In this document: piece after piece, positions 2,827 to 61,312 of the stretch
How positions within the stretch are numbered: position 1 is the first letter of the stretch
Layout: each line of letters opens with the position of its first letter
Source: Bryoerythrophyllum caledonicum
Lineage: Eukaryota > Streptophyta > Bryopsida > Pottiales > Pottiaceae
Assembly: GCA_963971425.1 (NCBI GenBank)
Contig: OZ020515.1
Span: 8,820,291 to 8,884,290 of the forward strand
Reading direction: 5' to 3'
DNA: 64,000 nucleotides
Notes under the pieces: generated by a model
What the model was told of the DNA's origin: nothing
What the model saw: only the letters and a program-made list of their open reading frames with translations
Database searches by the model: none
Position numbers and translations under genes: made by a program

Positions 2827-2933
2827 CTTTTGCACTCTCATCACTTCATCACATGAAGAAGCTGGAGAACACTTGAATCCTTTCAGCTTGAAAACGACTT
2901 GAGCGACGATTTCTGCTAGCGTGCCGGCAAACT

Positions 2934-5900
2934 ATGGTAATTTCTCCGATCTCCAGGACTGGTCTGATGAAACTGCTGCGACTTGTGAGTGACGACGTGC
3001 TTTCGTTCAGGACATCAAGAATGACGGAGCACGGTACGCTTTCCAGGTGCGGTGGACGGATCCCAGGAATCAGATTGTATGGAAGTACCAGTTCATGTAC
3101 CACACCTCCGACAGATCCATTGAGATGGTGCGTCAGTTGCTCTATCCTCAATGCATCATGTTTCGGTGGCTATGATTTAGATGTAGTTGCAAGAATTTGG
3201 ATGAGAAGACTCGTTTCTTCTGTATATCAAACTGGAACACCGAATCCGCCTCAACAAAACAGAACCTTAGCTGGTTTCAGTCTTGAGACCAGTTTTTTTG
3301 AAGTTCTCCCCTGCTCCTGCCACCAACAGATGTGTCTTTTTTCAATCACATGTTTTGCTACAGCGTCGATCCAGTGCCGTAATACATAACGAGCTGAATG
3401 TATGATTGACGGAGTTTATGAGAGTCTGAGGTAAAAATGGGCGACATGTTTCATGGTCTAGTGAATTGAATTCCATACGATGAATCGTTTGCTTTGCCAT
3501 TCAGTCCAAGGTAGAATCTGAAATTAGCAGAGTGGATCATTGCCTCGATCTGGGAAGGAGTGACCCTGAGTGTAGTCATTCAAACACGAGTTCCTTCATG
3601 AGCTGATTCATCTGCACACTTGTGAAATGCAGTACGATATGAAGAACCAGAAAACGTTTCTGGGAAGAGTAGCCTACCCGGACTTGACTCTGGAGCAGCT
3701 GTACATCGGGAGCACCATCTTGGTCTACTCGCGACAGCTTTTCATTGAGGACTTCGGCGATGACTTCACAAGGAAGAACCTACGAGGGCTGCAGGAAACG
3801 TAAACCTTCATACCTCGACTTGCTCAGCTTGTGTCTGATCTTGACGCGGGATTCAAAGTTGCTGGCCTCAGTAGTTACTTAGATTGTGTGAATGACCTGC
3901 ATCGTGCGTAAACCAGGACCCTGGCCATGATCAAGCCAGATGCGATCCAGCATACCGGACGGATCTTGGAGTGCATCACCTCGAATGGACTTCTGGTGAA
4001 GAACCTGCGCATGTGCCAGCTCTCGCTTGCGCAGGCGGAGGAGCTCTACACCTCTCACCGGGGAAAGCCCTTCTTCCAGTAAGAATTGCTGACATTTCAC
4101 AAACCAGGCTTCATCGAGATCACGGACAGTAACCAAATCATCGATGTGGACCACGCAGGTGCCTCACTCAGCTGATTGCGAGTGGACCGATCGTCGCCAT
4201 GGAACTGGTCGGTGAAAATGCGCTCTACAGGTTGCGACTGTTACTTGGTAAGAACCATCTTCACTTCAACCCCTCCGGATAATCAAGGGATGCTCGTCGA
4301 AGGGAGTTATGTGCAGGTACATTACGTTATGAAGAGTTGTTCGCCTGATGAAGCTAGAGATTCGGAAGAAGCTAGCTCACAGATAGACTGGTTCTGGATT
4401 CATGCAAGGTCCTACAAGCCCCGAAGTAGGAAGGATGAAGGCACCCTCGTCGATTCGTGCCCAGTTCGGCTCGGATTGCACGAGAAACGCCTGTCATGGA
4501 TCAGATTCGCACGAGGCGGCGCGTCTGGTATCGTCAGATCCTCTTCGAGACTACTGCATCCATACCATGTGTGCATATGAAGTGGTTGCTTACTGACAGT
4601 CATACATGAGTGGCTCTTTTGCAGGAGACATGCTTTTTCTTCATCAATCGTAAGCTTGGAATGTGCGCTCGGTTCCGGAACTGCAGCGTCGCAATTGTAA
4701 AACCACATGCCGTGACGGCAGGTGATGTCTGATCTTGTGAGAGAAAACATCGCACGCAATTGTAGCTGCAGTCAATTTGCCTGAAATACTAACCGATGCT
4801 GTTGTTTTTTGCACAGTTTTTGAAATTAGGGGCATGTAACATAGCACGTATTACATTGCACTCGCGAGGAATCCCAGCTGAAAAATGCGTGAACATGCAT
4901 AATTCGAGATGAGATGGCATTGCACGACCACATGAGATAGTACATTCTGTGGTCTTTGTCCATGTAAGTCCATTTACAGAACAACCAGTCATGAGTTGGT
5001 CAAGAGTTGCTGATAGTGAGTACTATTATTCATACAGGAAGTGCGGGGGCAATCATAAGCCGCGTCATGGAGAACTTCGACGTCACAGCCATAGAACTGG
5101 CCCATTTCTCAAGGGCAAATGCGATGGAATTCCTCGAAGTGTACCGAGGGATTGTGCCAGACTTCCTCGTAACGTGCTCACCATCTACTCCTTTTTGAAG
5201 AGTACAAGACATGAATGGGTGCATGTTGTGTGTGATCTGACACGAGGTCTTTCTGGCCTTGATCCATTCAGGCCATGACGTTCGAGCTCGAGTCCGGAGC
5301 TTTCATAGCCATGGAGGTCGTGGACAAGCACAATCCTTGCACAAACCCCGTGAACAAGTTGCGGGAGCTGTGCGGACCTGCGGACCCTTGCATTGCACGC
5401 CCTCTTCGGCCTGACACCATCCGTGCCGAGTTCGGAATCAACAAGGTACGTTCTCTGCCTCCTGCACCCCAGCTTCACCACTCAACTTGCAGTTCCCAGG
5501 AGAGCGTCTCATGCATGTTCAACAAGTCCAGCTTCGGAACGACAGATCAAAACTTCTTCCCTCTTTGCAGTGACTAGGGACATCCAAAAGCAGCCAAGAT
5601 ATTATGGGGCATACAGGATGCGTCCACGGATCTAACGATCATTGCAACCATGTAGTTCAACATGCATGTAGAATCTAATCACTAAGACTTTAGCTTTCTT
5701 ACAAATAGACCTGTTTTCGACACTCTGAACTTGACACTTTGAGGTGTCAAAACGAAGACTTGTGGAAAACTTGTGATAGGATATAACTGTAGTGAGTCAA
5801 AAACAGCCCCATTTGTACTGGAGATCAGTTAGTGAACTCTACCTGTTATGAAGGTAAAATTCTCCCAGCAGAATCCCAAGGTGCTTCTGGTCGAACACTG

Positions 5901-6300
5901 GCTGCACCGAGATCAAGTATCTATCTGCCTGGCAATTGATGTTCTGGATTAGCGTGACGTGCACGAACAAACTTCAGTCTGACGCGGTGAAGCTGACCGT
6001 GGAATCATATTACAGGTGAGGAACGCCATCCACTGCACGGATCTGGAAGACGACGGCGAGCTGGAGTCGCAGTACATCTTCATGCACGAGTACGAGCGAG
6101 AGCCCTCCAAAGCGGTGGTGATTCCCAAAGCCGACGCCTCGTGCATACAACCCTCTGCGCCCGACTCTGCTTCTGACCAAGTCTCTAGTTCCTCCAGGAG
6201 CAGCAGCTCCTCCGGGACGTGCTCCGGCACATCCTCCTCCTGTTCGTCCTCCCAAAGCGACCGAGGTGTCCCGCATCCCAAACTCAATTGCCGCGCTTGA
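2934..6300 (+). CDS. NME7: NME7 / nucleoside diphosphate kinase 7, copy 1 (ten exons)
   Basis: Flagellar NDK-family protein with an N-terminal DM10 domain and two NDK domains; in other eukaryotes NME7 is a ciliary microtubule inner protein and binds the gamma-tubulin complex. Exons read: 2934-2936 (start ATG only), 3011-3127, 3633-3799, 3917-4078, 4159-4247, 4409-4527, 4625-4721, 5038-5168, 5272-5445, 6016-6300. All junctions are GT-AG and the phases join without a break, giving 447 residues. DM10 covers about residues 8-95. NDK A starts at TLAMIKPDA (about 97), with catalytic-type His209 in NACHGSDS. NDK B starts near VAIVKPHA (about 238), with His359 in NAIHCTD. The start was chosen because it gives a 74-bp intron and a family-like N terminus. 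The Ser-rich tail (about 53 residues longer than copy 3) is unusual. Exon 6 uses an AAG acceptor where copies 2 and 3 have CAG. Confidence 0.92.
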
Positions 6301-6342
6301 CGCAACGAAGAAGAAGAAGAAGAACAGCTTCAATCTGGCGTG

Positions 6343-6348
6343 AATAAA
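6343..6348 (+). promoter_or_regulatory. Polyadenylation signal AATAAA of NME7 copy 1
   Basis: A canonical AATAAA lies 43 bp after the predicted stop. It also overlaps the stop of an alternative frame that ends KKKKKNSFNLA. Copy 2 has the same hexamer at 19,890-19,895; copy 3 has AATGAA. Confidence 0.5.
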
Positions 6349-6382
6349 GTGTCTGAATGAGGACGAGAGTAGTGCCTTTCGT

Positions 6383-6432
6383 CCAGTGAGAAGGTAGACT
6401 AGACAGATGAAGGTCGTCTACCTTCTCACTGG
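6383..6432 (+). repeat. 17-bp perfect inverted repeat behind NME7 copy 1
   Basis: 6383-6399 and 6416-6432 are perfect reverse complements around a 16-base loop. After a 3-base bulge the stem extends by a further TGCCTTT/AAAGGCA pairing. It is kept in copies 2 (19,930-19,979) and 3 (about 33,472-33,521). It could fold in the 3' UTR or mark an old insertion end. Confidence 0.7.
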
Positions 6433-6463
6433 AAAGGCAGTAAGCTGATTAGTAACCAAAGGT

Positions 6464-6690
6464 AGTCTCTGCAGCTCAAGGAATGAGAACGGGGAACTCA
6501 AGGGAACGGAGAGTGGGAACAACCACAAAAGCGGGATATACCCCACATCGTTTGCAAAAGTATGTTCTGAGAGGTATAAATACAGAAACGAGAAAGGAAT
6601 ATTCTGTCTTTTCGGAGACATGTAAATTTGGTGCGGACCCGAAAAAGGGGCCAGAACCTTTTTGCCCAAGAATGCTATTTTTTGCACCTA
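6464..6690 (+). repeat. Dispersed TATA-bearing repeat (MRS2-upstream type)
   Basis: About 210 bp, running from GCTCAAGGAATGAGAACG to GGGGCCAGAACC. It is also found at 16,070-16,268, 20,011-20,237, 29,616-29,814 and 38,288-38,482, and in diverged inverted form at 59,690-59,885 upstream of the real MRS2 gene. It contains TATAAATA (6575-6582), so it may act as a promoter. Confidence 0.75.
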
Positions 6691-6864
6691 AAGGCTGAGG
6701 CAATTTTGTGGGTTTTGTGGGCTTTTAGGGTTTTGTGGGTTGTGTGGGATTTGTCGGTTTTGTAGATTTTGAGGGGTTTTATAGGTTTTGTGGGTTTTGT
6801 AGATTTTGTGGGTTTTTGTAGGTTTTGAGGGATTTTGTACGTTTTGTGGGATTTGTGGGTTGTC
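6691..6864 (+). repeat. GT-rich minisatellite (TTTTGTGGG / TTTTGTAGG units)
   Basis: Irregular tandem units of 9-10 bp lie between the TATA-bearing repeat and the MRS2 fragment. Copy 2 has it at 20,238-20,411; shorter versions are at 16,269-16,340, 29,815-29,887 and 38,483-38,594. Confidence 0.8.
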
Positions 6865-7243
6865 TGGGTTTGCGCGTTTGGCAGAGATGGTTTTGTTGGG
6901 TCGCGTGAGGCCATTTGAGGACGTGCCATCGGTGTGAGCGAGAGCATGCCTCTTTTGGGGTTGTGGGTATTTGCTTGTGGCGGTTGTGGTGAGAGTTCGA
7001 GCGGGGGTTTGAGCTTGGGAATTGGGGGAAGATGGTAACTTTGAAGGCGAGGTTGATGCGGTTGGGGGCTGCTGGGCCATTGGAGGCGCTTTGAGGCGGG
7101 GAAGGGGCGGCATGGGGAGTTGCTGAAGCGGCCACCGTTCCAGGGGATGGAGGGCGGGTTGGTGAAGGAGCGGTGCGGTCGTGGATCCAAAATCGATTTG
7201 TGCGGGAACACGCACATTCTGGAGGTGGACAAGGCGTCGTCGA
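6865..7243 (+). pseudogene. MRS2 5'UTR/exon 1 fragment (copy 1)
   Basis: Reads in the same order as the reverse complement of 58,680-58,250: the 5' leader with GCGCCATCGGTGTGA-like sequence, the start region (ATG at 7032, giving MVTLKARL where MRS2 has MADLKARL) and the beginning of exon 1 up to the GCGGGAACACGCA and GACAAGGCGTCGT blocks. The frame soon stops at TGA, so no MRS2 protein is made. At about 7,244 it passes directly into NME7 intron sequence. It is a captured or duplicated gene fragment. Confidence 0.85.
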
Positions 7244-8690
7244 TTACATTGCACCCGTGTTGAATCCCAGTTGAAAATTTGGGTTATTGAAATGCGTGCA
7301 CAATTCAAGTCGAGTCGATGGCATTGCACGACCATCTGACATACAAGCTCATTTTATAGTCTTTGTCCTTGTAAGTCCATTTACAGAACAACCAGTCATG
7401 AGCTGGTCAAGAGTTGTTGATAGTGAGTACTATTATTCATACAAGAAGTGCGGGGGCAATCATAAGCCGCGTCATGGAGAACTTCGACGTCACAGCCATG
7501 GAACTGGCCCATTTCTCAAGGGCAAATGCGACAGAATTCCCCCAAGTGTACCGAGGCATTGTTCCAGTCTTCCTCGTAACGTGGCTCACCATCCATATGT
7601 GTTGATTCTCTTAACCCCTAGAGGACCAAATCTCCTTCGGGGGGATTTCTGATTTTGGGCAGGTTCCTAAAATTCGAAAAAAAATCCTTTTTCTCTAAAT
7701 ATTTTATTCTAGAATGCCTGTGATAAGAGCTTCGTGGAGATTATTTTATTTTATTTTTTGGATTTGTAGTTTGAAAGTTAGTACCACTTAAAGCCAAAAG
7801 TGGGGACTCCCGGCACCTCCAAAATTTTGGACAAAAGTTTCTATTGACATTGAGATTTTCCACACATATAAAGAATATTTACTTCTTAGGAAATTTTCAA
7901 AAAAAATTCTTGTCTTTAGAGTAAAAAGGCATTTTATTCCAAGTCAAACATTTTCACACATTGTTGGGCAACTGGGGGAAAAAATTCATCTTTTCTACAT
8001 AAAACCTAGAGATCTTCATATTTTTCACCTTTTATTTTTTCAAAAACAATATGTGGTGAAAACCTTCTTAATGACCGTTTGGATTATCATTTGAATACAT
8101 ACGGAGTTCACAAAAAAATAAAACGTGAAATGGCAATTTTTGAACCTCCACTCCTTGCACACTTGTTTTGAATATGCTACACCCCTTTTTTACCTTTAAA
8201 AATTGGTGTGCTGGGAAATGACATCATGCTCAAGACAATGGTAAAAGATTTAGACCTTGTACAATGCAAAAACATGATACAAAGTGAAGTCAAAGTCCGC
8301 AGATCTACTCAACGCATGGAAGAAAATGAACCATTGTTTTGACTTTAAACACTAAAGCTATCAATCTGTGCGGTGGATTGCAACCAAAATTTTACGGCAT
8401 GTTTATATAGAAGTCTAATTTAAGATCTTACGGTTGAAAATCCGAAATTCACTTTAAAATGTGATTTTTATGTCTCTTTTTGGCAGTGGCAATTTTGGAC
8501 TGGTTTTAGAGCGAAAGTGGTCGTGGTCCTTCAGGGGTTAAGAAAACAAGAAAGTTGTTTTTCCGCAGAATGTGTGCATGATGTGTACGATCTTACACCT
8601 TGTCTAATTTCTGGCCTACTTCCATTCAGGCCATGACGTTTGAGCTTGATGAGCTTGATGGAATGGGCTCGCGAAGAGATGCTCAAAATG
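7244..8690 (+). pseudogene. NME7 fragment (intron 6, exon 7, start of exon 8), split by a MITE
   Basis: 7244-7450 matches NME7 intron 6. 7451-7585 matches exon 7 (AIISRVMENFDVTAMELAH), with the acceptor changed from CAG to CAA. Intron 7 is interrupted by the TTAA element at 7,611-8,541 and resumes at 8,542. Exon 8 starts at about 8,631 (AMTFELDE) and is lost after a few codons. It is non-functional as NME7, but is fused in sense orientation behind the MRS2 fragment. Confidence 0.85.
7611..8541. mobile_element. TTAA-flanked non-autonomous DNA element 1
   Basis: Starts TTAACCCCTAGAGGACCA and ends TGGTCCTTCAGGGGTTAA, so it has terminal inverted repeats bounded by TTAA on both sides, as in piggyBac-type insertion. 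It has no coding capacity. It sits in an NME7-fragment intron, which fixes its boundaries. It shares internal sequence with the element at 46,477-47,608, for example the GGTGGATTGCAACCAAA block. Confidence 0.75.
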
Positions 8691-8791
8691 ATTCATTTTA
8701 GGAGTCACACATGCATCTGCAACCATCCAAGCATGTGAATCAGATGCAACAGATAAAAAATTGTTGCACAAAATACAACCTGCTACCATAT

Positions 8792-9639
8792 TTAACCCCT
8801 AAAGTCGAAATGGACCCGAATGTGGTCGATCTGACTCTGGTCAGGCTCTCAGTTACTAAATTTAGATCGTATGAAGTTACAATTTTGGAAGGTTGTAGAG
8901 TTTTCCCATACCTTTAAAATGACACCATTCATGCTTCAAAATTCCTCATACTTTAGGAGATATTCACGGTCAAAGTTTGAAAACACTGTTAGGGCATGCT
9001 GAAATCTGCCCAGAACTGCGGTATATGCTCATTTATTCTCAAAATCTGCCCAAAATCAATTAGATCGCAGTAACTTCAGAAATTCACCAAAAATTGAGAG
9101 TTTACTTTTTTTCGAATTTTGTTTTCGTACATGTAAAAGAGGAAGTAAAGCATGATCTCACCGTTTGGATTTTCAATCAGATAATTTTTTACAGGCCTTT
9201 TTAATTGTTGAAAATGGTCATTTGTATTTGTATTTCAGCATACCTCCATGTGAAAAATTAAGCATTTCTTTAGGTTTTATAGGTCCTATGAGGGTAAAAA
9301 TTATATGGACATATTCCTTACTCACATAGGAACAAGAATTTGAAGAGCCTCATGTCAAATTTCCTTTCAAAATTGGTTTTTTTGGCCCCCAAAACATTAG
9401 TTTTCCATTCTACAACAAGGAAAAAATCTTTTTTTTCAACTTTGAACATTACGATCTCACAAATGGAGAGGAATTTGAATCTAAGATTCGGTATGCATGT
9501 ACATGTACAAGTTAGGTACTAGATCTTACGGTTATATACTCGAAAATTTGTCAAAAGTTAAAAATTTCCACCTTGCATTGGAAGAGGCCAGTTTTGAGGG
9601 TTTTTGGCAGTTTTGAGGGCTTTCGACTTTAGGGGTTAA
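8792..9639. mobile_element. TTAA-flanked non-autonomous DNA element 2
   Basis: Bounded by TTAACCCCTAAAGTCGAAA and its inverse TTTCGACTTTAGGGGTTAA. It has the same outer terminus as element 1 but different inner bases, so it is a related subfamily. No coding capacity seen. Confidence 0.75.
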
Positions 9640-9844
9640 GAAGCCACGTATGGTTACGGTTATCACAATGCAGGTGACTTTTGCTATATGACGCACATTC
9701 TCACTTCGACGGGCGTGACCCAAAGTAGTCCCCTAGAGGCTACATCTAAGACCTACTAAATCTTGATAGAAGGACAGGGCAAACATTGTCTACAACCTAA
9801 GCGTCGCTCGCGATGCCTTGAAAATCACTTATTCAGTGAATACA

Positions 9845-10660
9845 TTAAACCCCTAAAGGACCATGGCAATTTTTCCTCAAAAACACTCCAAAATTGCCAT
9901 TTTCAGCACATTCAACACAAAATTATACAAAATCATTTTTTTGAAAATTTAACCGTAGGATCTTGTACTAGACTTGTCTGAGAGTTTGTGGTGAAAATTT
10001 TGGTAAGTTTGATTGCACGGATTGAAAGATATTAGCCTTTGTAGTGCGACATAGTCTCTTTTTCAGGTCATACTTTACACCTTCAACAAACTTCGACCAC
10101 CTTCTATGGCAACTTTTTGCACTACGGGCCGTGAATTTATTGTGTTAACTTGAAAAAATCATGTTAGGCACATGTGCACCAAATTTTAGAAGTAGAAGAG
10201 GTGTAGAAGATGTCCTGAAAAATCCTGCAATGCAACTATGTGTTGAGAATCAACAATACACTTTACATTTTGCATATATCATATCCTTCTCAAATATTTG
10301 AAATTCACAAATCCGTACGGTAGATGCAAAGATCTCAATCTCCTTTCCAAGAGGACATTTTCTTTCTTTTAAATGAACAAAAGCTTGAATTTCTATTGAA
10401 TTTAGAAGCTATTAAAGTTTGGTGACAGTATTTGTGATATGTCACACTAAACTGCTGCAATATTTGTATATGTAAGTGAAAATAAATTGTAACTTTTGAA
10501 CCGTAAGTCGGAATTCTACGAAATTTGTGTCTATGCAAAGCTAATAAAAAAGTGTCCATTCAATAAAAAATCTCAGAAAATAATGCCTAGAATTGAGAAC
10601 GTGGTACCTTACCCAAACTCAAAATGTCCCCCGAGGGGACATTGGTCCTTTAGGGGTTAA
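9845..10660. mobile_element. TTAA-flanked non-autonomous DNA element 3
   Basis: Left end TTAAACCCCTAAAGGACCA (one extra A), right end TGGTCCTTTAGGGGTTAA. It is the third member in a row. The inner end sequence matches element 1 more closely than element 2. Confidence 0.75.
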
Positions 10661-10992
10661 ATACTCTACTCAATAGTTCAAAATGAAGATTGAATAAATT
10701 ACTAGAGACTCACCAAAATTGCGGCCAACTTCCTGATTTATGTGCGCGTGTTGAGATGAAGCTATTTATTCTCTACCTAGTTGTACAAAACCTTCTGGAA
10801 ACGTAGCAGTTGTATTTTTGCCTTGGCTAGGATTTCCACAGACATTGGAGCTGAAGAGTGTGCTTTTTCAATTATCCGTTCCGCTGACGTTCATTTCTCA
10901 TGAACCAGTGCCCAGCTTTTGATAGTACGTACCTCACAGTTTACGCGGTGTGATGTGCAATCATCTCAATGGGTTTCCACATCAAAGTGGGA

Positions 10993-11331
10993 TTAGGTTT
11001 TGGATGAATTGACAAAGCGCCCCTCGAGAAAATGCTCGTATGTCTCGATGCAACTTTTGAAAACAGATCGCAGCTGCGGGAGTGCATGACCAACCAAAAT
11101 ACGTTGTGCTAATCCAATAGGTACTATGAGAATAGCTTTGGATGAATTTGGTTTTGCACTTGAAAACGTGCTTTGTACCGTATCTGTAATGCTATTCTAT
11201 TGTAATGCTTACCGCGGTCTGCAGCATCTTCGGAGTCATGTCAGCATCAATTGCGACTTCCAAAGAGCCAGACATGTCCACTATTTTCTCCGCCATTTTG
11301 AATGGATCCACCACTCCCTCAGGTGATGCGT
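10993..11331 (-). pseudogene. Two-exon 3' fragment of an unidentified host gene
   Basis: On the minus strand, an exon at 11331-11213 (acceptor GCAG, 119 nt, reads ASPEGVVDPFKMAEKIVDMS and on to TPKMLQTA) ends at a GTAAGC donor. An exon at 11073-10993 follows (acceptor CCGCAG, 27 codons, LRSVFKSCIETYEHFLEG to a TAA stop). The junction is in phase 0 and both exons are fully open, which is unlikely by chance. I do not recognise the protein. Upstream exons were not found, so it is probably a captured gene end. Copy 2: 24,539-24,877. Confidence 0.5.
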
Positions 11332-11469
11332 CTGCTTAGAATTCCTCACAGAGTGTATTACAAAAAACACAGTACATATTAGTCAATAAGACACGCGAGT
11401 AATAGCAGCAGATGCTTAAAACGGCAGCACCGACTATTTTAGTACATACAAGACTTTATGCAACCAGAG

Positions 11470-11690
11470 TGATCGCATCAAGGTGCAGTTCCGAAATTCC
11501 AACAGTGAAGACATAAGACGAAGAGAGAAATGTAACATAATCAATATAAGACACATCATATGACTCAGATGAACACATATTCCAACACTCCCATTCGTTA
11601 TAGGTTTATTAGATTCAAACAACAACGGTGAGATATGCACGTATTACATTGCACTCGCGATGAATCCCAGCTGAAAAATGCGTGAACATG
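11470..11690. repeat. Mosaic segment: intron-like DNA plus an NME7 intron 6 fragment
   Basis: About 11,480-11,635 matches 39,028-39,175. About 11,641-11,690 matches NME7 intron 6 (GTATTACATTGCACTCGCGA). The same two pieces occur in the opposite order at 38,885-39,175, so the block has been rearranged. Confidence 0.6.
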
Positions 11691-11790
11691 CACTACAAGA
11701 AATCGGAGTGGATAGCAACACCAAAAGAATAACGTTTCCTGGAAACGTTGCTATCTGAGCGACGTTTGTTAGAAGGCCCAAAATCCTAAT
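11691..11790 (+). mobile_element. CACTA-type transposon end (single terminus)
   Basis: Begins CACTACAAGAAATCGG, the usual terminus of plant CACTA (EnSpm) elements, exactly where NME7 intron similarity stops. It includes a small inverted repeat (GATAGCAAC..GTTGCTATC). No matching right end was found, so the element is truncated or split by the following retroelement. Confidence 0.5.
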
Positions 11791-11881
11791 ATAGAACAAC
11801 CTCTCATGTTCCCGCGAGAGTTCCCCAGAACAAATAGTACTCGGTCATTTGGGAACAAGTTGGTAATCTTGCAAAGGGATC

Positions 11882-12946
11882 ATGATGTGGCTAGTGGGAT
11901 GTCGCCAATTCACCACAAAATCGATCCACCCTCCCCACTTCCACCCACACCACCCAAACCACATCCTCAAAAACCCCACCACCTATCCCATTAACAGCAT
12001 CATACACCACGAATACAAGAAAAAAATAGATAAAAACCAAATAGAAGACAATTACACTAGATATCTATGCCAATGGACTCACAATAACCACACTTACAAC
12101 AAATGGCTCCCCCAAAGAAACCTCTTCCCAAGACACAACCAAAACACCATTTCACATAACACAAATAAATTGACAAAATATTATCAAAGAACTCAACACA
12201 AATTCTACACCGAAATTATCCAAGTTCACCACCCACAAAACCAACCCCAAGACACAAGGTCCGTCACCCCACCCACAATAATCCCCCTACTAAACATCTA
12301 CACAACGGAATGCAACCCCGAAAAAGACACTCTTACCTCATCTAACACAATAAAAATTGACAAAGACCAAGCACACTTATACGAAGAAGATGGAAGGCAT
12401 CTTTTTACCATCCCAATCACTAGGCTCACATGGTTGTGGAACCAATATAATACTAAACTACAAACCCCTACAAACATTGAACCAACAACCCAACCGTTCG
12501 AAACCGAAGTCATTTGGCTATACCAAAGATACAAATATAGATTACCAAAAAGTAACCCCCTTAAACTTACACAATATACACTACCCATACCTATACTTAA
12601 TTCACTAATCTCCACATTCAACATCCAACACTCATATTTCTCCTCCCCCGTCACATGCCCCACCAAACTCAACAAATTTTACTCCCCCTTTGAAAGAGAT
12701 AAAATATTCGGATCACTAGGCAAAGCCTTTGACCACAAATGGATAGGTAATGGTATGGCCCACCCACACAATGAAGAAGGAACACAACAAGCTCTACATT
12801 GGGCCCGCCTCGCGGCCAAACATGACCCAAACCACACCTCCACTCTAATCATAACCCAGACAAAAACTGGTACCAAAATCATAATCCACACTCGGGCCCC
12901 TTTCCCGATACACACATCATCACAATATTCGAAGCGGATTCAATAA
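11882..12946 (+). pseudogene. Retroelement frame A with a possible adenine-methyltransferase-like segment
   Basis: 354 residues, rich in Asn, Thr, Lys and His. Residues 266-340 (FYSPFERDKIFGSLGKAFDH, then KWIGNGMAHPH and ALHWARLAA) resemble, from memory, the methyltransferase-like domains with an FG..G.AF..W.G..NPPF pattern found in algal mobile elements. The catalytic-type NPPF would here be AHPH (293-296), so any activity is doubtful. The frame breaks near 12,905: sequence continuing the domain (DTHIITIFEADS) runs on in the frame of the next ORF, so a one-base shift separates two parts of one polyprotein. The start is arbitrary because the 5' end is truncated. Confidence 0.45.
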
Positions 12947-14736
12947 CATATGAAGAACCCACCATCCCACTAGATCTAAAAAAACCCAGAATTGAATCAT
13001 CCACTCTACAAATAATATGCATCCACCACCAAAATCATACTCTAGGCACACAAGAACAACTAGAAGAACTCTCCTCCATAGCAAAGACTCTAAACGTACA
13101 CCGGATACTCACAAAATCGGCCCCACCAACGCCAATGCAAACACCCGTCAACAGAAGCAAAAAATGGTCAAAACTACACTACAATAACAATACACTAAAC
13201 TACACCTTAACACCCCCACCCCTCCCGGAGTATCAAACTAACACCCCACCTAAATTTAACCCCGAATATAGCTACTATACTGATGGCTCCTTTAAACCGC
13301 CAGAACAAATTAGCCCGGGATCTTGGCGCAGAGAAAAAGCCGGTTATGGAATATACAACGCTACGAAAGAAATCAAACTAGCCAAAAGACTACATGGACT
13401 GCAAAATATCCTCAGAGCAGAACTAATGGCCATCCACAAAACATTAGAAATCGTCTCAACAAAATACAACAATGAACCGGTGCACATATTTACATATTGC
13501 ATTAATGCACTATATTTATTAAACACCCAAATAACACATCCTACCCTCCATGATAGTCACCCCGACCGAATCATACTAGAATCAACGGTCCAAATGATAC
13601 TAAAAAGAGAACAAATCACAACCCTTCACAAAGTCCGAGCCCATGCTAATATTGATGGCAATGAACAAGCGGATAAACTCGCAAAAGAAGGAAGAGAAAA
13701 ATCACATAAAAATGCCAAAGACCCACATGAACACGCCCACGCCACCCCTTACTATTTCCAAAAAGAAGACTGGCCCTCCAAAGAAGACACCCCCGATAAA
13801 GGCCCGGTTAGATTCCTGAGTAAATACCTCAAAAAACAAGACCTACATAACAATCTTGACACAATCACAGATAACCTTCCTAACATAGAAAAATGGATCA
13901 ACAACGATGACATAGACAATGAACTCTCTACAAATTTTTGGAAAAACCCCATCGTCACCGATTCACAAATAACATGCCTTATCAAATTCCGTACCGGTCA
14001 ATACATGGGAAACGCCCGTAAACAACTGTTCTTTGGAATAGAAAGAATTCCATCCATAACATGCCCCATATGCCCCTCAACGGACCCCGACACATGGCTA
14101 CGTGTTCTACTCAAATGCCAAAACCACCACATACACTCCCTAATTGTTAAAAGACATAACAAAGCAGTATGGGAAGTCCGAAAACTAATCACCTCCCACA
14201 ATAAATCGAGATGTTTTATACTAATGAACGCCGGCACTTTCAATAACAATCCACAAGAAAATACGGTCCCCCCGTGGCTACTCCCATGCTCATGTACGAC
14301 CCAAAGATGTCATTGCAACGCTAGGCTCAAACCGGACATCCTTTGTGTCAAAGGTTTACCATACAATGACCCACCACCCGATAACGTCAACCAAGACTAC
14401 ACCATTCAATTTATTGAATTCACATACTGCAACGATAGATTTTCCCCGGAAACAATCCAAAACAAAATAGACAAATACCAACCCCTTATTGACGACATCA
14501 TCGCCCTCGGATGGAATGTCGACCCCCTTATGGTAATCACATCCGGCGCTCGAGCCACCACCTTTATCCCATCTATGAAAACTCTAGAAGACACCTTCAA
14601 GATACCCATTGAAACAATTAAAACATCCTTTAAAAACATTAACACTATAGCTATCCAACATGCCATGTCCATTCTTCTACATAAACGCAAAATCGAAAAC
14701 AACGAAGCCCTCCCCGATACACAGGACCCCCCCTAA
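12907..14736 (+). pseudogene. Retroelement frame B: RNase H-like domain, Cys/His motif, putative restriction-like nuclease
   Basis: Open from about 12,907; the first ATG is at 13,135 (533 residues from there). RNase H signature: YYTDGS (D50), RAELMAIHKTLE (E96) and KVRAHANIDGNEQADKLAKE (H170, D180). The third catalytic Asp, usually TDS, is TYC here (Tyr121), so the enzyme is probably inactive. A CPIC..LLKC Cys/His cluster follows (310-341), as in non-LTR elements after RNase H. The end carries KPD (399-401), Glu428 and KIDKY (444-448), reminiscent of the PD-(D/E)XK endonuclease of R2-like elements. RNase H assignment is firm; the nuclease is a hypothesis. Confidence 0.7.
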
Positions 14737-15031
14737 ATTCTCCCCCCGCCTTGATTTTCATGACTAGTTGGTTTTAAGGTTTTTGACTACTTGCCTGGTT
14801 TGTGGTTGGTTCGTTGGTTAGTTGCCCGGTTTGTGATTCGTTGGTGGGATGGTTGACTTGTGGTTCTTTGGTTTCTTGTTACATAGTGTCTACCCTCGAG
14901 AGAGGGAAGTAGTTCCAGCTCACTAATTCCTTGTCCTTTGGGCATGGTCTTAGTAGTGGAACGAACAGACACTTTATTCACGCCGGCCTCCTTCGGAGAC
15001 CGGCGTTCTTCTTCTTCTTCTTCTTCTTCTG
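14737..15031 (+). other. Retroelement 3'UTR, terminal hairpin and TTC tail (copy 1)
   Basis: The GT-rich 3'UTR ends with the block GTGGAACGAACAGACACTTT and a hairpin CGCCGG-C-CTCC-TTC-GGAG-A-CCGGCG (about 14,980-15,004), followed at once by about nine TTC triplets. Conserved 3' hairpins recognised by reverse transcriptase are known for several LINE families. The same arrangement occurs at 1-120 and, inverted, at 61,440-60,768. Confidence 0.65.
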
Positions 15032-15044
15032 CTACCGTGCCACC

Positions 15045-15655
15045 TTTGAGGAAAATTTAGAGGCGGAGCAAGATGGGCATCTACAAAGATTGGTGGCACT
15101 AAAATTGATGCAAGCATTGGCGAACTACAGTAACTTCTATGAAGTGTGGTTGCAATGGGATGAACCCTTTGTATAGAAGATGTTCAGTATGATCTACTAC
15201 TCTCGTAGATTTTTCCATGCCTTGTGAGCTTGTAGGCCTAAAAGGGTTGACCTCTTACAACCACTTTTTGGTCTCTGGGTGTGTTATATCCAAATTTGCA
15301 TGAAATCTGTGAGGAACTAGGAACACTAAGTTTAGATTTGTACATACATTATATGCATGCTTTTGAAAAATCAGATTATGATTTGAAGTTCTATAATTCT
15401 TGGAATACCTCATAACACATTGCCAAATACACTATGTACACTTCAATATAATGAATACCTACAAATACAATGTCAAATACTATGTGGTTATTTGTATACA
15501 TGGAAAATCACAATGGTTTGAATATTGTACCCATCGATTAAGCATTTTGATGAAGAATTTATAATCTTCTCTAACATCAAAACTAATGGAGAAAACAACA
15601 AAATTAAAGGGATAGTGTTAACCTTTAAGTTAGTGAGTTGTGTAAATAAAGATCA
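15045..15655. repeat. Dispersed non-coding repeat (shared with 34,020-34,620 and 52,690-52,860)
   Basis: Starts near GAGGCGGAGCAAGATGGGC and matches the 34 kb locus over about 600 bp and the 52.7 kb locus over about 170 bp. No coding potential seen. The 34 kb version appears to be the older neighbour from which the tandem-unit version was copied. Confidence 0.65.
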
Positions 15656-16069
15656 AGTGTTACTTCAGAGAATCTGCTTTCTATTAGCAAGAGACTGAAT
15701 GAAACCATTTTGCTCAATTTGCATACATGATGTGTATTGAGTAGGGACACAATTATCATAACGTGAAGGCCAAGAACATGTTCATCCAAAAAGTCAGACC
15801 CAAAAAACCACTTGTGCATGGCAGATTTGTAGCATTCATTGCATAATCCAAGCGTGAGCACAACTGAGTTTTAGAGCTAATTTACTTTTATCTATATCTT
15901 TCTCAAATTATTTTGCATTGTTGGACTTGTAATTTGGTAGCCACATCATTTACTTGCATGTATACTTGAGCCGTCAACTCATTTGGCATTAAATGCAGTA
16001 AATTATAAATTACGATTGGCTAAAGGTAGACTAAGGTGTTTCCTAATCAGTTTTGGCAGTCTCTGTACA
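15656..16069 (-). pseudogene. N-terminal remnant of the Tc1-like element (copy 1)
   Basis: On the minus strand the frame near 15,861-15,690 (NECYKSAMHKWFFGSDF, then HHVCKLSKMVS) matches 36,747-36,590 beside the Tc1-like transposase. In this copy the transposase body is deleted and the sequence jumps to the repeat at 15,655. The right part (to 16,069) matches 36,760-36,950 up to the foldback-element insertion point. Confidence 0.6.
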
Positions 16070-16347
16070 GCTCAAGGAATGAGAACGGGGAACTCAAGGG
16101 AACGGAGAATGGAACAACCACAAAAGCGGGATATATCCCACATCGTTTGCAGAACCATATTCTGAGAGGTATAAATACAGAAACGGGAAAGGAATATTCT
16201 GTCTTTTCGGAGACATGTAATTTAGGTGCGGACCCGAAAAAGGGGCCAAAACCTTTTTGCCCAAGAATGTTTTGTGGGTTTTATGGGTTTTGTTTTGTGG
16301 GTTTTATGGGTTTTGTGGGATTTGTCGGTTTTGAGGGGTTTTGTACT
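16070..16347 (+). promoter_or_regulatory. TATA-bearing repeat directly upstream of NME7 copy 2
   Basis: Same repeat as 6,464-6,690, followed by a short GT-rich minisatellite that joins NME7 leader sequence at 16,348. TATAAATA lies at 16,170-16,177, 278 bp before the NME7 copy 2 start. In position it can act as the promoter of this copy. Copy 3 has the same arrangement (TATAAATA at 29,716-29,723). Confidence 0.55.
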
Positions 16348-16454
16348 CTTTTGCACTCTCATCACTTCATCACATGAAGAAGCTGGAGAACGCTTGAATC
16401 CTTTCAGCTCGAAATCGACTGGAGCGTTGTTTTCTGCTAGCGTGGCGGCAAACT

Positions 16455-19400
16455 ATGGTAATTTCTCCGATCTCCAGGACTGGTCTGATGAAACTGCTGC
16501 GACTTGTGAGTGACGACGTTTGCTTTCGTTCAGGACATCAAGAATGACGGAGCTCGGTACGCTTTCCAGGTGCGGTGGACGGATCCCAGGAATCAGATCG
16601 TGTGGAAGTACCAGTTCATGTACCACACCTCCGACAGATCCATTGAGATGGTGCGTCAGTTGTTCTATCCTCAATGCATCATGATTCGGTGACTGTCTTT
16701 ACGATCTTGCAGCACTGCTATGATTTAGATGTAGTTGCAAGCATTTGGATGAGAAGACTCGTTTCTTCTGTATATCAAACTGGAACACCGAATCCGCCTC
16801 GACAAAACAGAACCTTAGCTGGTTTCAGTCTTGAGACCAGTTTTTTTGAAGTTCTCCCCTGCTCCTGCCACCAACAGATGTGTTTTTTTCCATCTCGTGT
16901 TTTGCTACAGCGTCGATCCAGTGCCGTAATACATAACGAGCTGAATGTATGATTGACGGAGTTTATGAGAGTCTGAGGTAAAAATGGGCGACATGTTTCA
17001 TGGTCTAGTGAATTGAATTCCATACGATGAATCGTTTGCTTTGCCATTCAGTCCAAGGTAGAATCTGAAATTAGCAGAGTGGATCATTGCCTCGATCTGG
17101 GAAGGAGTGACCCTGAGTGTAGTCATTCAAACACGAGTTCCTTCATGAGCTGATTCATCTGCACACTTGTGAAATGCAGTACGATATGAAGAACCAGAAA
17201 ACGTTTCTGGGAAGAGTAGCCTACCCGGACTTGACTCTGGAGCAGCTGTACATCGGGAGCACCATCTTGGTCTACTCGCGACAGCTTTTCATTGAGGACT
17301 TCGGCGATGACTTCACAAGGAAGAACCTACGAGGGCTGCAGGAAACGTAAACCTTCATACCTCGACTTGCTCAGCTTGTGTCTGATCTTGACGCGGGATT
17401 CAAAGTTGCTGGCCTCAGTAGTTACTTAGATTGTGTGAATGACCTGCATCGTGCGTAAACCAGGACCCTGGCCATGATCAAGCCAGATGCGATCCAGCAT
17501 ACCGGACGGATCTTGGAGTGCATCACCTCGAATGGACTTCTGGTGAAGAACCTGCGCATGTGCCAGCTCTCGCTTGCGCAGGCGGAGGAGTTCTACACCT
17601 CTCACCGGGGAAAGCCCTTCTTCCAGTAAGAATTGCTGACATTTCACAAACCAGGCTTCATCGAGATCACGGACAGTAACCAAATCATCGATGTGGACCA
17701 CGCAGGTGCCTCACTCAGCTGATTGCGAGTGGACCGATCGTCGCCATGGAACTGGTCGGTGAAAATGCGCTCTACAGGTTGCGACTGTTACTTGGTAAGA
17801 ACCATCTTCACTCCAACCCCTCCGGATAATCAAGGGATGCTCGTCGAAGGGAGTTATGTGCAGGTACATTACGTTATGAAGAGTTGTTCGCCTGATGAAG
17901 CTAGAGCTTCGGAAGAAGCTAGCTCACAGATAGACTGGTTCTGGATTCATGCCAGGTCCTACAAGCCCCGAAGTCGGAAGGATGAATGCACCCTCGTCGA
18001 TTCGTGCCCAGTTCGGCTCGGATTGCACGAGAAACGCCTGTCATGGATCAGATTCGCACGAGGCAGCGCGTCTGGTATCGTCAGATCCTCTTCGAGACTA
18101 CTGCATCCATACCATGTGTGCATATGAAGTGGTTGCTTACTGACAGTCATACATGAGTGGCTCTTTTGCAGGAGACATGCTTTTTCTTCATCAATCGTAA
18201 GCTTGGAATGTGCGCTCGGTTCCGGAACTGCAGCGTCGCAATTGTAAAACCACATGCCGTGACGGCAGGTGATGTCTGATCTTGTGAGAGAAAACATCGC
18301 ACGCAATTGTAGCTGCAGTCAATTTGCCTGAAATACTAACCGATGCTGTTGTTTTTTGCACAGTTTTTGAAATTAGGGGCATGTAACATAGCACGTATTA
18401 CATTGCACTCGCGAGGAATCCCAGCTGAAAAATGCGTGAACATGCATAATTCGAGATGAGATGGCATTGCACGACCACATGAGATAGTACATTCTGTGGT
18501 CTTTGTCCATGTAAGTCCATTTACAGAACAACCAGTCATGAGTTGGTCAAGAGTTGCTGATAGTGAGTACTATTATTCATACAGGAAGTGCGGGGGCAAT
18601 CATAAGCCGCGTCATGGAGAACTTCGACGTCACAGCCATAGAACTGGCCCATTTCTCAAGGGCAAATGCGATGGAATTCCTCGAAGTGTACCGAGGGATT
18701 GTGCCAGACTTCCTCGTAACGTGCTCACCATCTACTCCTTTTTGAAGAGTACAAGACATGAATGGGTGCATGTTGTGTGTGATCTGACACGAGGTCTTTC
18801 TGGCCTTGATCCATTCAGGCCATGACGTTCGAGCTCGAGTCCGGAGCTTTCATAGCCATGGAGGTCGTGGACAAGCACAATCCTTGCACAAACCCCGTGA
18901 ACAAGTTGCGGGAGCTGTGCGGACCTGCGGACCCTTGCATTGCACGCCCTCTTCGGCCTGACACCATCCGTGCCGAGTTCGGAATCAACAAGGTACGTTC
19001 TCTGCCTCCTGCACCCCAGCTTCACCACTCAACTTGCAGTTCCCAGGAGAGCGTCTCATGCATGTTCAACAAGTCCAGCTTCGGAACGACAGATCAAAAC
19101 TTCTTCCCTCTTTGCAGTGACTAGGGACATCCAAAAGCAGCCAAGATATTATGGGGCATACAGGATGCGTCCACGGATCTAACGATCATTGCAACCATGT
19201 AGTTCAACATGCATGTAGAATCTAATCACTAAGACTTTAGCTTTCTTACAAATAGACCTGTTTTCGACACTCTGAACTTGACACTTTGAGGTGTCAAAAC
19301 GAAGACTTGTGGAAAACTTGTGATAGGATATAACTGTAGTGAGTCAAAAACAGCCCCATTTGTACTGGAGATCAGTTAGTGAACTCTACCTGTTATGAAG

Positions 19401-19847
19401 GTAAAATTCTCCCAGCAGAATCCCAAGGTGCTTCTGGTCGAACACTGGCTGCACCGAGATCAAGTATCTATCTGCCTGGCAATTGATGTTCTGGATTAGC
19501 GTGACGTGCACGAACAAACTTCAGTCTGACGCGGTGAAGCTGACCGTGGAATCATATTACAGGTGAGGAACGCCATCCACTGCACGGATCTGGAAGACGA
19601 CGGCGAGCTGGAGTCGCAGTACATCTTCATGCACGAGTACGAGCGAGAGCCCTCCAAAGCGGTGGTGATTCCCAAAGCCGACGCCTCGTGCATACAACCC
19701 TCTGCGCCCGACTCTGCTTCTGACCAAGTCTCTAGTTCCTCCAGGAGCAGCAGCTCCTCCGGGACGTGCTCCGGCACATCCTCCTCCTGTTCGTCCTCCC
19801 AAAGCGACCGAGGTGTCCCGCATCCCAAACTCAATTGCCGCGCTTGA
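16455..19847 (+). CDS. NME7: NME7 / nucleoside diphosphate kinase 7, copy 2 (ten exons)
   Basis: Exons 16455-16457 (ATG), 16534-16650, 17180-17346, 17464-17625, 17706-17794, 17956-18074, 18172-18268, 18585-18715, 18819-18992, 19563-19847, all GT-AG and in phase, 447 residues. It has the same DM10 and two NDK domains as copy 1 and the same Ser-rich tail. It keeps the usual Phe in EEFYTSH, where copy 1 has Leu, and carries Ser for Gly late in NDK A (HEAARL reads EAARL after GS..). Its 5' leader and promoter are of the copy 3 type, not the copy 1 type. Confidence 0.92.
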
Positions 19848-19929
19848 CGCAACGAAGAAGAAGAAGAAGAACAGCTTCAATCTGGCGTGAATAAAGTGTC
19901 TGAATGAGGACGAGAGTAGTGCCTTTCGT

Positions 19930-19979
19930 CCAGTGAGAAGGTAGACTAGACAGATGAAGGTCGTCTACCTTCTCACTGG
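19930..19979 (+). repeat. Inverted repeat behind NME7 copy 2
   Basis: Identical to the hairpin at 6,383-6,432. AATAAA lies upstream at 19,890-19,895. Confidence 0.7.
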
Positions 19980-20010
19980 AAAGGCAGTAAGCTGATTAGT
20001 AACCAAAGGT

Positions 20011-20414
20011 AGTCTCTGCAGCTCAAGGAATGAGAACGGGGAACTCAAGGGAACGGAGAGTGGGAACAACCACAAAAGCGGGATATACCCCACATCGTTT
20101 GCAAAAGTATGTTCTGAGAGGTATAAATACAGAAACGAGAAAGGAATATTCTGTCTTTTCGGAGACATGTAAATTTGGTGCGGACCCGAAAAAGGGGCCA
20201 GAACCTTTTTGCCCAAGAATGCTATTTTTTGCACCTAAAGGCTGAGGCAATTTTGTGGGTTTTGTGGGCTTTTAGGGTTTTGTGGGTTGTGTGGGATTTG
20301 TCGGTTTTGTAGATTTTGAGGGGTTTTATAGGTTTTGTGGGTTTTGTAGATTTTGTGGGTTTTTGTAGGTTTTGAGGGATTTTGTACGTTTTGTGGGATT
20401 TGTGGGTTGTCTGG
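20011..20414 (+). repeat. TATA-bearing repeat and GT-rich minisatellite, copy 2
   Basis: Second-unit counterpart of 6,464-6,864, with TATAAATA at 20,122-20,129. Confidence 0.75.
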
Positions 20415-20790
20415 GTTTGCGCGTTTGGCAGAGATGGTTTTGTTGGGTCGCGTGAGGCCATTTGAGGACGTGCCATCGGTGTGAGCGAGAGCATGCCTCT
20501 TTTGGGGTTGTGGGTATTTGCTTGTGGCGGTTGTGGTGAGAGTTCGAGCGGGGGTTTGAGCTTGGGAATTGGGGGAAGATGGTAACTTTGAAGGCGAGGT
20601 TGATGCGGTTGGGGGCTGCTGGGCCATTGGAGGCGCTTTGAGGCGGGGAAGGGGCGGCATGGGGAGTTGCTGAAGCGGCCACCGTTCCAGGGGATGGAGG
20701 GCGGGTTGGTGAAGGAGCGGTGCGGTCGTGGATCCAAAATCGATTTGTGCGGGAACACGCACATTCTGGAGGTGGACAAGGCGTCGTCGA
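20415..20790 (+). pseudogene. MRS2 5'UTR/exon 1 fragment (copy 2)
   Basis: Same as 6,865-7,243; the start-like ATG is at 20,579 and the frame stops after about 20 codons. It joins NME7 intron 6 sequence at 20,791. Confidence 0.85.
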
Positions 20791-22236
20791 TTACATTGCA
20801 CCCGTGTTGAATCCCAGTTGAAAATTTGGGTTATTGAAATGCGTGCACAATTCAAGTCGAGTCGATGGCATTGCACGACCATCTGACATACAAGCTCATT
20901 TTATAGTCTTTGTCCTTGTAAGTCCATTTACAGAACAACCAGTCATGAGCTGGTCAAGAGTTGTTGATAGTGAGTACTATTATTCATACAAGAAGTGCGG
21001 GGGCAATCATAAGCCGCGTCATGGAGAACTTCGACGTCACAGCCATGGAACTGGCCCATTTCTCAAGGGCAAATGCGACAGAATTCCCCCAAGTGTACCG
21101 AGGCATTGTTCCAGTCTTCCTCGTAACGTGGCTCACCATCCATATGTGTTGATTCTCTTAACCCCTAGAGGACCAAATCTCCTTCGGGGGGATTTCTGAT
21201 TTTGGGCAGGTTCCTAAAATTCGAAAAAAAATCCTTTTTCTCTAAATATTTTATTCTAGAATGCCTGTGATAAGAGCTTCGTGGAGATTATTTTATTTTA
21301 TTTTTTGGATTTGTAGTTTGAAAGTTAGTACCACTTAAAGCCAAAAGTGGGGACTCCCGGCACCTCCAAAATTTTGGACAAAAGTTTCTATTGACATTGA
21401 GATTTTCCACACATATAAAGAATATTTACTTCTTAGGAAATTTTCAAAAAAAATTCTTGTCTTTAGAGTAAAAAGGCATTTTATTCCAAGTCAAACATTT
21501 TCACACATTGTTGGGCAACTGGGGGAAAAATTCATCTTTTCTACATAAAACCTAGAGATCTTCATATTTTTCACCTTTTATTTTTTCAAAAACAATATGT
21601 GGTGAAAACCTTCTTAATGACCGTTTGGATTATCATTTGAATACATACGGAGTTCACAAAAAAATAAAACGTGAAATGGCAATTTTTGAACCTCCACTCC
21701 TTGCACACTTGTTTTGAATATGCTACACCCCTTTTTTACCTTTAAAAATTGGTGTGCTGGGAAATGACATCATGCTCAAGACAATGGTAAAAGATTTAGA
21801 CCTTGTACAATGCAAAAACATGATACAAAGTGAAGTCAAAGTCCGCAGATCTACTCAACGCATGGAAGAAAATGAACCATTGTTTTGACTTTAAACACTA
21901 AAGCTATCAATCTGTGCGGTGGATTGCAACCAAAATTTTACGGCATGTTTATATAGAAGTCTAATTTAAGATCTTACGGTTGAAAATCCGAAATTCACTT
22001 TAAAATGTGATTTTTATGTCTCTTTTTGGCAGTGGCAATTTTGGACTGGTTTTAGAGCGAAAGTGGTCGTGGTCCTTCAGGGGTTAAGAAAACAAGAAAG
22101 TTGTTTTTCCGCAGAATGTGTGCATGATGTGTACGATCTTACACCTTGTCTAATTTCTGGCCTACTTCCATTCAGGCCATGACGTTTGAGCTTGATGAGC
22201 TTGATGGAATGGGCTCGCGAAGAGATGCTCAAAATG
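20791..22236 (+). pseudogene. NME7 exon 7-8 fragment split by a MITE (copy 2)
   Basis: Counterpart of 7,244-8,690, interrupted by the TTAA element at 21,158-22,087. Confidence 0.85.
21158..22087. mobile_element. TTAA-flanked element 1, copy 2
   Basis: Same ends as 7,611-8,541, one base shorter in the A run near 21,527. Confidence 0.75.
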
Positions 22237-22337
22237 ATTCATTTTAGGAGTCACACATGCATCTGCAACCATCCAAGCATGTGAATCAGATGCAACAGAT
22301 AAAAAATTGTTGCACAAAATACAACCTGCTACCATAT

Positions 22338-23185
22338 TTAACCCCTAAAGTCGAAATGGACCCGAATGTGGTCGATCTGACTCTGGTCAGGCTCTCAGTT
22401 ACTAAATTTAGATCGTATGAAGTTACAATTTTGGAAGGTTGTAGAGTTTTCCCATACCTTTAAAATGACACCATTCATGCTTCAAAATTCCTCATACTTT
22501 AGGAGATATTCACGGTCAAAGTTTGAAAACACTGTTAGGGCATGCTGAAATCTGCCCAGAACTGCGGTATATGCTCATTTATTCTCAAAATCTGCCCAAA
22601 ATCAATTAGATCGCAGTAACTTCAAAAATTCACCAAAAATTGAGAGTTTACTTTTTTTCGAATTTTGTTTTCGTACATGTAAAAGAGGAAGTAAAGCATG
22701 ATCTCACCGTTTGGATTTTCAATCAGATAATTTTTTACAGGCCTTTTTAATTGTTGAAAATGGTCATTTGTATTTGTATTTCAGCATACCTCCATGTGAA
22801 AAATTAAGCATTTCTTTAGGTTTTATAGGTCCTATGAGGGTAAAAATTATATGGACATATTCCTTACTCACATAGGAACAAGAATTTGAAGAGCCTCATG
22901 TCAAATTTCCTTTCAAAATTGGTTTTTTTGGCCCCCAAAACATTAGTTTTCCATTCTACAACAAGGAAAAAATCTTTTTTTTCAACTTTGAACATTACGA
23001 TCTCACAAATGGAGAGGAATTTGAATCTAAGATTCGGTATGCATGTACATGTACAAGTTAGGTACTAGATCTTACGGTTATATACTCGAAAATTTGTCAA
23101 AAGTTAAAAATTTCCACCTTGCATTGGAAGAGGCCAGTTTTGAGGGTTTTTGGCAGTTTTGAGGGCTTTCGACTTTAGGGGTTAA
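22338..23185. mobile_element. TTAA-flanked element 2, copy 2
   Basis: Same as 8,792-9,639 apart from a G-to-A change near 22,624. Confidence 0.75.
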
Positions 23186-23390
23186 GAAGCCACGTATGGT
23201 TACGGTTATCACAATGCAGGTGACTTTTGCTATATGACGCACATTCTCACTTCGACGGGCGTGACCCAAAGTAGTCCCCTAGAGGCTACATCTAAGACCT
23301 ACTAAATCTTGATAGAAGGACAGGGCAAACATTGTCTACAACCTAAGCGTCGCTCGCGATGCCTTGAAAATCACTTATTCAGTGAATACA

Positions 23391-24206
23391 TTAAACCCCT
23401 AAAGGACCATGGCAATTTTTCCTCAAAAACACTCCAAAATTGCCATTTTCAGCACATTCAACACAAAATTATACAAAATCATTTTTTTGAAAATTTAACC
23501 GTAGGATCTTGTACTAGACTTGTCTGAGAGTTTGTGGTGAAAATTTTGGTAAGTTTGATTGCACGGATTGAAAGATATTAGCCTTTGTAGTGCGACATAG
23601 TCTCTTTTTCAGGTCATACTTTACACCTTCAACAAACTTCGACCACCTTCTATGGCAACTTTTTGCACTACGGGCCGTGAATTTATTGTGTTAACTTGAA
23701 AAAATCATGTTAGGCACATGTGCACCAAATTTTAGAAGTAGAAGAGGTGTAGAAGATGTCCTGAAAAATCCTGCAATGCAACTATGTGTTGAGAATCAAC
23801 AATACACTTTACATTTTGCATATATCATATCCTTCTCAAATATTTGAAATTCACAAATCCGTACGGTAGATGCAAAGATCTCAATCTCCTTTCCAAGAGG
23901 ACATTTTCTTTCTTTTAAATGAACAAAAGCTTGAATTTCTATTGAATTTAGAAGCTATTAAAGTTTGGTGACAGTATTTGTGATATGTCACACTAAACTG
24001 CTGCAATATTTGTATATGTAAGTGAAAATAAATTGTAACTTTTGAACCGTAAGTCGGAATTCTACGAAATTTGTGTCTATGCAAAGCTAATAAAAAAGTG
24101 TCCATTCAATAAAAAATCTCAGAAAATAATGCCTAGAATTGAGAACGTGGTACCTTACCCAAACTCAAAATGTCCCCCGAGGGGACATTGGTCCTTTAGG
24201 GGTTAA
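23391..24206. mobile_element. TTAA-flanked element 3, copy 2
   Basis: Same as 9,845-10,660. Confidence 0.75.

Positions 24207-61311: not shown

Positions 61312-61312
<1 letters not shown>

Follow-up and report, generated by a model that had tools for sequence, protein, structure and literature searches.

A dead, 5'-truncated LINE copy in Bryoerythrophyllum caledonicum and the selected PCIF1/CAPAM-like domain of its putatively Dualen-like family

Introduction

Among non-LTR retrotransposons (LINEs), Dualen is defined by an APE endonuclease together with a PD-(D/E)XK nuclease, and RNase H occurs within the group, as set out in passages of PMC3636483 and PMC4640811. For RandI elements, a section of PMC3747384 gives (ATT)n and (CTATTT)n as 3' tails. 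Nucleic-acid methyltransferases are carried by retrotransposons of other classes, namely Dam or cytosine-type enzymes in DIRS and Ty3/Gypsy elements (described in parts of PMC6338049 and PMC5890265), and PMC12846837 has among its references work on APE-type LINEs with 2A peptides. According to one passage of PMC7641849, the Pfam family PF12237 (PCIF1_WW) is misannotated and really represents a CAPAM-like methyltransferase. Our search of the open-licence literature, including portions of PMC6338049, PMC8868631 and PMC7641849, turned up no retrotransposon described as encoding a PCIF1-family domain.

Here we describe a LINE copy within a stretch of 64,000 nucleotides from Bryoerythrophyllum caledonicum, hereafter the window (assembly GCA_963971425.1, contig OZ020515.1, positions 8,820,291 to 8,884,290 of the forward strand), and compare it with its relatives in the genome searched (437 Mb, 894 contigs). 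Positions are those of the window unless a locus is named.

Results

The plus strand of the window carries a 5'-truncated LINE copy at 11907-15030, a whole insertion that includes a 3' hairpin and a (TTC)n tail, the end of which was read from the sequence. Its start follows from blastn against a longer copy, L032, of which 6519-9641 aligns to window 11907-15018 at 96.9%; this places the beginning of the element proper at 11907, and not at 11791, as a sequence-only reading of the region had it. The two overlapping open frames, A (11867-12946) and B (12826-14736), are one frame in L032, and tblastn of this one-frame relative splits at 12856-12865 (+ strand), which locates the frame break of the window copy inside the CAPAM-like domain described below; the stop codon of the polyprotein frame is at 14734-14736 on the same strand. 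The window copy furthermore has Tyr for the RNase H Asp (13495-13497) and Arg for a zinc-knuckle His (14101-14103), at columns where Asp and His are each found in 33 of the 34 copies of our table; the odd copy at both is presumably L002, the identical duplicate of the window copy. A reverse transcriptase (RT) is missing because the copy is 5'-truncated. In longer copies the RT lies upstream, and the methyltransferase-like segment does not occupy the place where an RT would be expected, as had been supposed. The stretch is a dead, frameshifted, 5'-truncated copy of a high-copy LINE.

A second copy, resulting from a 13.5-kb tandem duplication, lies 13,546 bp further on at 25453-28576 (+ strand), identical to the first throughout the 2870 nt compared; its tail is alike, and its tail end was carried over from the first copy. 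The duplication runs head to tail (2827-20010 against 16348-33551, 98.9% over 17.2 kb) and has both element copies inside; this repeat may have arisen recently or may be an artefact of assembly. Elsewhere, the window holds, at 1-120, a 3' end that belongs to a related element and has diverged (76%), a fragment of a Tc3-type transposase HTH at 35844-36368 (- strand; PF01498, E=1.2e-5, under the cut-off), and an MRS2-like magnesium transporter in two pieces at 56372-58506 (- strand; PF22099, E=1.5e-14 and 7.3e-8). NME7-like pieces near 16400-17500 and at 2892-3389 were recognised by eye only. Rfam, at gathering scores, gave no match within the window.

Searching the genome with frame B yielded at least 69 copies, all at 94% or above (the best 69 of 11,209 first-look candidates), and with the CAPAM-like domain at least 150, all at 91% or above (the best 150 of 4,811 candidates). 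Twelve ten-kb stretches were taken around copies with long frames, and frames of L032, L033 and L034 were run against Pfam. In these longer copies, a 2A-like motif is followed by APE, RT, a weak chromo-like stretch, the CAPAM-like domain, RNase H, a zinc knuckle and a putative restriction-like endonuclease, after which come the hairpin and the (TTC)n tail. As every one of the 12 long loci is interrupted by a stop or a frame break, or is truncated, we infer the whole protein from a comparison of copies and not from any single intact gene. Exo_endo_phos (APE, PF03372) is found upstream of the RT with E=1.1e-5 in L032 and 4.5e-6 in L034, at scores (25.7 and 27 bits) barely above the curated cut-off of 24.5. 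RVT_1 matches with E=3.8e-25 in L032 and 4.9e-22 in L034, and partially in L033 (0.0014, under the cut-off), so that the full-length search proposed by the sequence-only reading did turn up RT-bearing relatives in the same genome. Among solved structures, the nearest to this RT is R2 (E=9.6e-30), with LINE-1 next (2.6e-16).

The RNase H signature that had been read by eye in frame B is borne out by a PF00075 match at 13267-13695 (+ strand, frame B residues 148-290, E=6e-12), with values between 6.4e-11 and 5.4e-13 over the window and the three longer copies (5.4e-13 in L032). The Cys/His cluster noted behind it is likewise present, as a CCHC zinc knuckle of the form CxxC-x9-H-x4-C at 14062-14118 (+ strand), which was assigned by eye and from the 34-copy columns, without a profile match. 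The chromodomain-like stretch at 11996-12130 (+ strand) is weak, matching PF00385 with E=0.0022 in the window, under the family cut-off, and with 0.019-0.064 in three other copies (13.6-18.3 bits over the window and three longer copies, against a cut-off of 25.1). NCBIfam matches were all under cut-off: group II intron RT (4.8e-11), exonuclease III (0.0005) and RNase HI (0.001). No relatives were confirmed in viral contigs, prokaryote genomes or phages, part of which were searched with a two-sequence alignment (A3). In L036 and L043-L045, a younger copy sits beside or within an older related element, pieces of which are 60-88% identical, and this older element is in turn interrupted again.

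Towards the C-terminus, the motifs RLKPD ... QFIEFT ... NKIDKY at 14323-14484 (+ strand) suggest the core of a restriction-like endonuclease, an assignment made from motifs only. KPD, IEF and KIDKY are well conserved over the 34 copies, the Pro of KPD being present in 29 of them. Where KPD, a Glu and KIDKY had been taken for a PD-(D/E)XK endonuclease, the motifs themselves hold up, but Pfam, NCBIfam and further profile searches gave no nuclease match in the C-terminal region, and the model of zinc knuckle plus putative nuclease (A2), at a mean pLDDT of 38.9, is unusable. If this region truly is a nuclease, the element would be a dual-endonuclease LINE like Dualen.

At the other end of the protein, a 2A-like stretch is present in 9 of the 12 long loci, the remaining 3 being truncated downstream of it. 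The putative motif, of the type (D)(I)E(T)NPGP, stands in frame ahead of the main frame, and NPGP is unbroken in 7 of the 9 loci; a piece from an older subfamily keeps NPGP and only part of the core. APE-type LINEs with 2A peptides have the same arrangement, in which an in-frame motif precedes the main frame, whereas here the open frame upstream of the motif varies in length between copies. This upstream region is A-rich and lysine-rich, differs between copies in its frame relation to the main frame as well as in length, has no Pfam match, and is possibly an ORF1. Over its mere 18 codons the 2A core gives a dN/dS of 0.33, which says little on selection, given that one of two out-of-frame controls reads 0.35. 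The same holds for ratios in the short or repeat-rich sequence at and before the motif in general, because out-of-phase frames upstream of and around the stretch are low as well (0.42, 0.31 and 0.35), showing that a low value is not always a coding one. By eye, degenerate 2A-like repeats (YYKTLVLNMDTN...) precede the motif in L032, upstream of 2284, and on the plus strand of L036 at 103-276. Just before the 2A-like stretch, L032 also has an inverted 37-nt copy of the element's own 3' hairpin and tail start (2138-2174), and such a copy is found in several other longer copies too.

The 3'-terminal hairpin (14981-15005, + strand) was read in the sequence and recurs in all of the loci L001-L030 but one, L017 (29 of 30). 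Directly behind it begins the (TTC)n tail (15006-15030, + strand); among copies these TTC-type repeats vary in length, with a few T-rich or TCTTC variants, and give way to unrelated flanks. Direct repeats were examined in the nine copies whose similarity to L032 starts inside the fetched DNA. Five of these have an 8-13-bp repeat at the junction or at most five bases from it (L027 being five bases off), and the other four, including the window copy, have none. Across copies, then, the hallmarks of LINEs are present, with variable 5' truncation, a simple 3' tail and short direct repeats, and together with the RT they identify the element as a non-LTR retrotransposon. The insertion pattern is that of target-primed reverse transcription with no evident fixed target, the priming itself being something that we infer. 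At 60759-61353, a (GAA)n array of about 550 bp abuts the decayed minus-strand 3' end of an element of the same kind, and this microsatellite looks as if it had grown from the (TTC)n tail.

In its domain content, the element appears closest to the Dualen/RandI elements of green algae, and is best called Dualen-like rather than Dualen. Shared with these are APE and RNase H, an RT nearest to R2 (among solved structures only), a putative C-terminal restriction-like endonuclease and a simple-repeat 3' tail. Its own, by comparison, are, between RT and RNase H, the CAPAM-like domain and the possible chromo-like stretch, and besides these the 2A-like motif before the N-terminal domain and a (TTC)n tail that follows a hairpin. 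We know of no Dualen element with a CAPAM-like domain, a chromo-like stretch or a 2A-like motif.

The CAPAM-like domain occupies 12461-12865 (+ strand), where the PF12237 match covers 12461-12796; in L032 the match extends as far as the counterpart of about 12862. Pfam finds PF12237 in frame A with E=9.1e-11 and in L032, L033 and L034 with E=5.4e-11 to 1.6e-10. The scores over the window, the longer copies and members of A1, a 16-copy alignment of the region, are 41.3-44.9 bits against a curated cut-off of 31.1, and 15 of the 16 members of A1 match, the exception presumably being L009, which contributes little of this region to the alignment. With phmmer, the unbroken segment of a longer copy matches solved PCIF1 structures (6irx, E=0.0023; 6irv, E=0.012); frame A of the window is weaker (E=0.081 to 6irx), as is the A1 profile, which reaches PCIF1 at only E=0.12. 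The latter value would suit the view that the similarity to PCIF1 is due to chance and the segment an ordinary LINE linker, as would the AlphaFold model of A1, whose mean pLDDT of 34.0 leaves fold and pocket without model support. Pfam scores of 41-45 bits (E 1e-10 to 1e-11) and the two phmmer matches to PCIF1 chains nevertheless make such a coincidence very improbable. The low pLDDT of A1 and A2 is probably due to shallow alignments, and the structure prediction that the sequence-only reading had advised came to nothing; profile searches, its other suggestion, did return a methyltransferase family, though no nuclease.

From these matches, the segment is assigned to the PCIF1/CAPAM cap-adenosine family and not to the Dam type, so that of the adenine methyltransferase-like segment seen in frame A, the methyltransferase is retained and the DNA adenine type is not. 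A DIRS-like or other element with a Dam-type DNA adenine methyltransferase had that by-eye likeness alone to recommend it, and can practically be dismissed: Pfam listed no Dam-type family at E up to 10 (window) or 1 (longer copies), and the longer copies contradict this identity, their APE, RT and RNase H, like the structure of the tail, being typical of a LINE. Methyltransferase-bearing DIRS and Ty3/Gypsy elements do resemble the present one in being mobile elements with a nucleic-acid methyltransferase-fold domain, but differ from it in methyltransferase family and element class, and the catalytic motif is replaced here.

This replacement is seen in the phmmer alignment to 6irx and 6irv, where A-HPHN stands opposite A-NPPF, with HPHN at 12761-12772 (+ strand) in place of the catalytic NPPF; a substitution of NPPF had been recognised previously, but as AHPH, one place over. 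The Asn of NPPF is conserved for N6-adenine chemistry. At the first position it occurs in 0 of 33 readable copies, in which H, P, H and N are kept 31, 33, 33 and 32 times, and three copies of an older subfamily, two of which measure 73% and 70% identity, read HPHN, HLYN and HPHN. Nearly fixed, and shared by two of these three, the replacement is therefore old and largely kept, and not a matter of recent decay. Compared with the cap-specific adenosine N6-methyltransferase PCIF1/CAPAM, the domain has PF12237 in common, also over the sequence that leads up to the catalytic loop, but it lies inside a LINE polyprotein, reads HPHN for NPPF, and is without a listed WW domain, Pfam giving none in the window or in the three longer copies.

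Selection was estimated as dN/dS over 34 copies, leaving out seven ten-kb loci already represented by earlier ones, and L001, which is identical to L002. The CAPAM-like domain gives 0.230 (95% 0.17-0.32, codon bootstrap), RNase H 0.242, the zinc-knuckle region 0.238, the putative nuclease 0.245 and the chromo-like region 0.336; the adjoining linker gives 0.426 (0.26-0.70), an interval that overlaps that of the CAPAM-like domain. Read out of frame, the CAPAM-like region yields 1.02 and 1.14, and, downstream of the 2A-like stretch, the ten regions of domain size yield 0.65-1.39. With a ratio like that of RNase H and controls around or above one, the CAPAM-like domain is a constant component of the polyprotein and is maintained by selection.

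Purifying selection would also be in keeping with an adenosine methyltransferase that is active although its motif has changed. Such an enzyme could mark the RNA cap or the cDNA of the element itself, for example as a disguise as host mRNA or as a means of avoiding silencing. An HPHN that is nearly fixed and extends to two of the three older-subfamily copies is what a working site might look like; on the other hand, the Asn conserved for this chemistry is missing from every readable copy, and we regard continued methylation as quite unlikely. Alternatively, the domain could do no more than connect RT to RNase H structurally or make protein-protein contacts, free of cap or methyl-donor chemistry. 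Its position between the two enzymes and its replaced catalytic motif both agree with this. Against it, A1 columns 178-182, 184-197, 202-204, 206 and 210 around the motif are nearly invariant, although H207, P208 and H209 themselves are under 90%, and constraint on the domain somewhat exceeds that on the adjoining linker, with overlapping intervals; we consider a purely structural part somewhat unlikely.

Discussion

We favour, at a probability of roughly 0.55, the reading that the window holds a dead, 5'-truncated Dualen/RandI-like LINE whose selected CAPAM-like domain is most likely non-methylating and holds capped RNA. So what exactly would such a domain do? Given that NPPF has become HPHN, it most likely no longer methylates, as far as can be told from the motif. 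The known substrate of the PCIF1/CAPAM family is capped RNA. If the domain has kept the family's hold on the capped 5' end, which is the weakest step and leans on this family substrate, then it may assist the protein in selecting full-length element RNA, or in keeping hold of it, while reverse transcription proceeds, in an element that would insert by target-primed reverse transcription. Taking this further, the LINE might have domesticated a host cap-methyltransferase fold as a reader, with the cap bound by the domain and the 3' hairpin by the RT; this would provide a full-length check and link the end of cDNA synthesis to second-site cleavage by one of the two endonucleases. We offer this extension tentatively and think it unlikely as a whole.

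The finding would be an unusual one, in that a mobile element would have taken over the fold of an RNA-cap enzyme, and would extend the modification enzymes captured by retroelements to a family that acts on RNA caps. Moreover, PF12237 matches in genome annotations may be transposon-derived, and not cap methyltransferase genes. Little is understood of the way in which LINEs recognise their own RNA at its 5' end and complete insertion, and a selected, motif-altered relative of a cap methyltransferase within a LINE is a concrete candidate for a 5'-end-recognition module.
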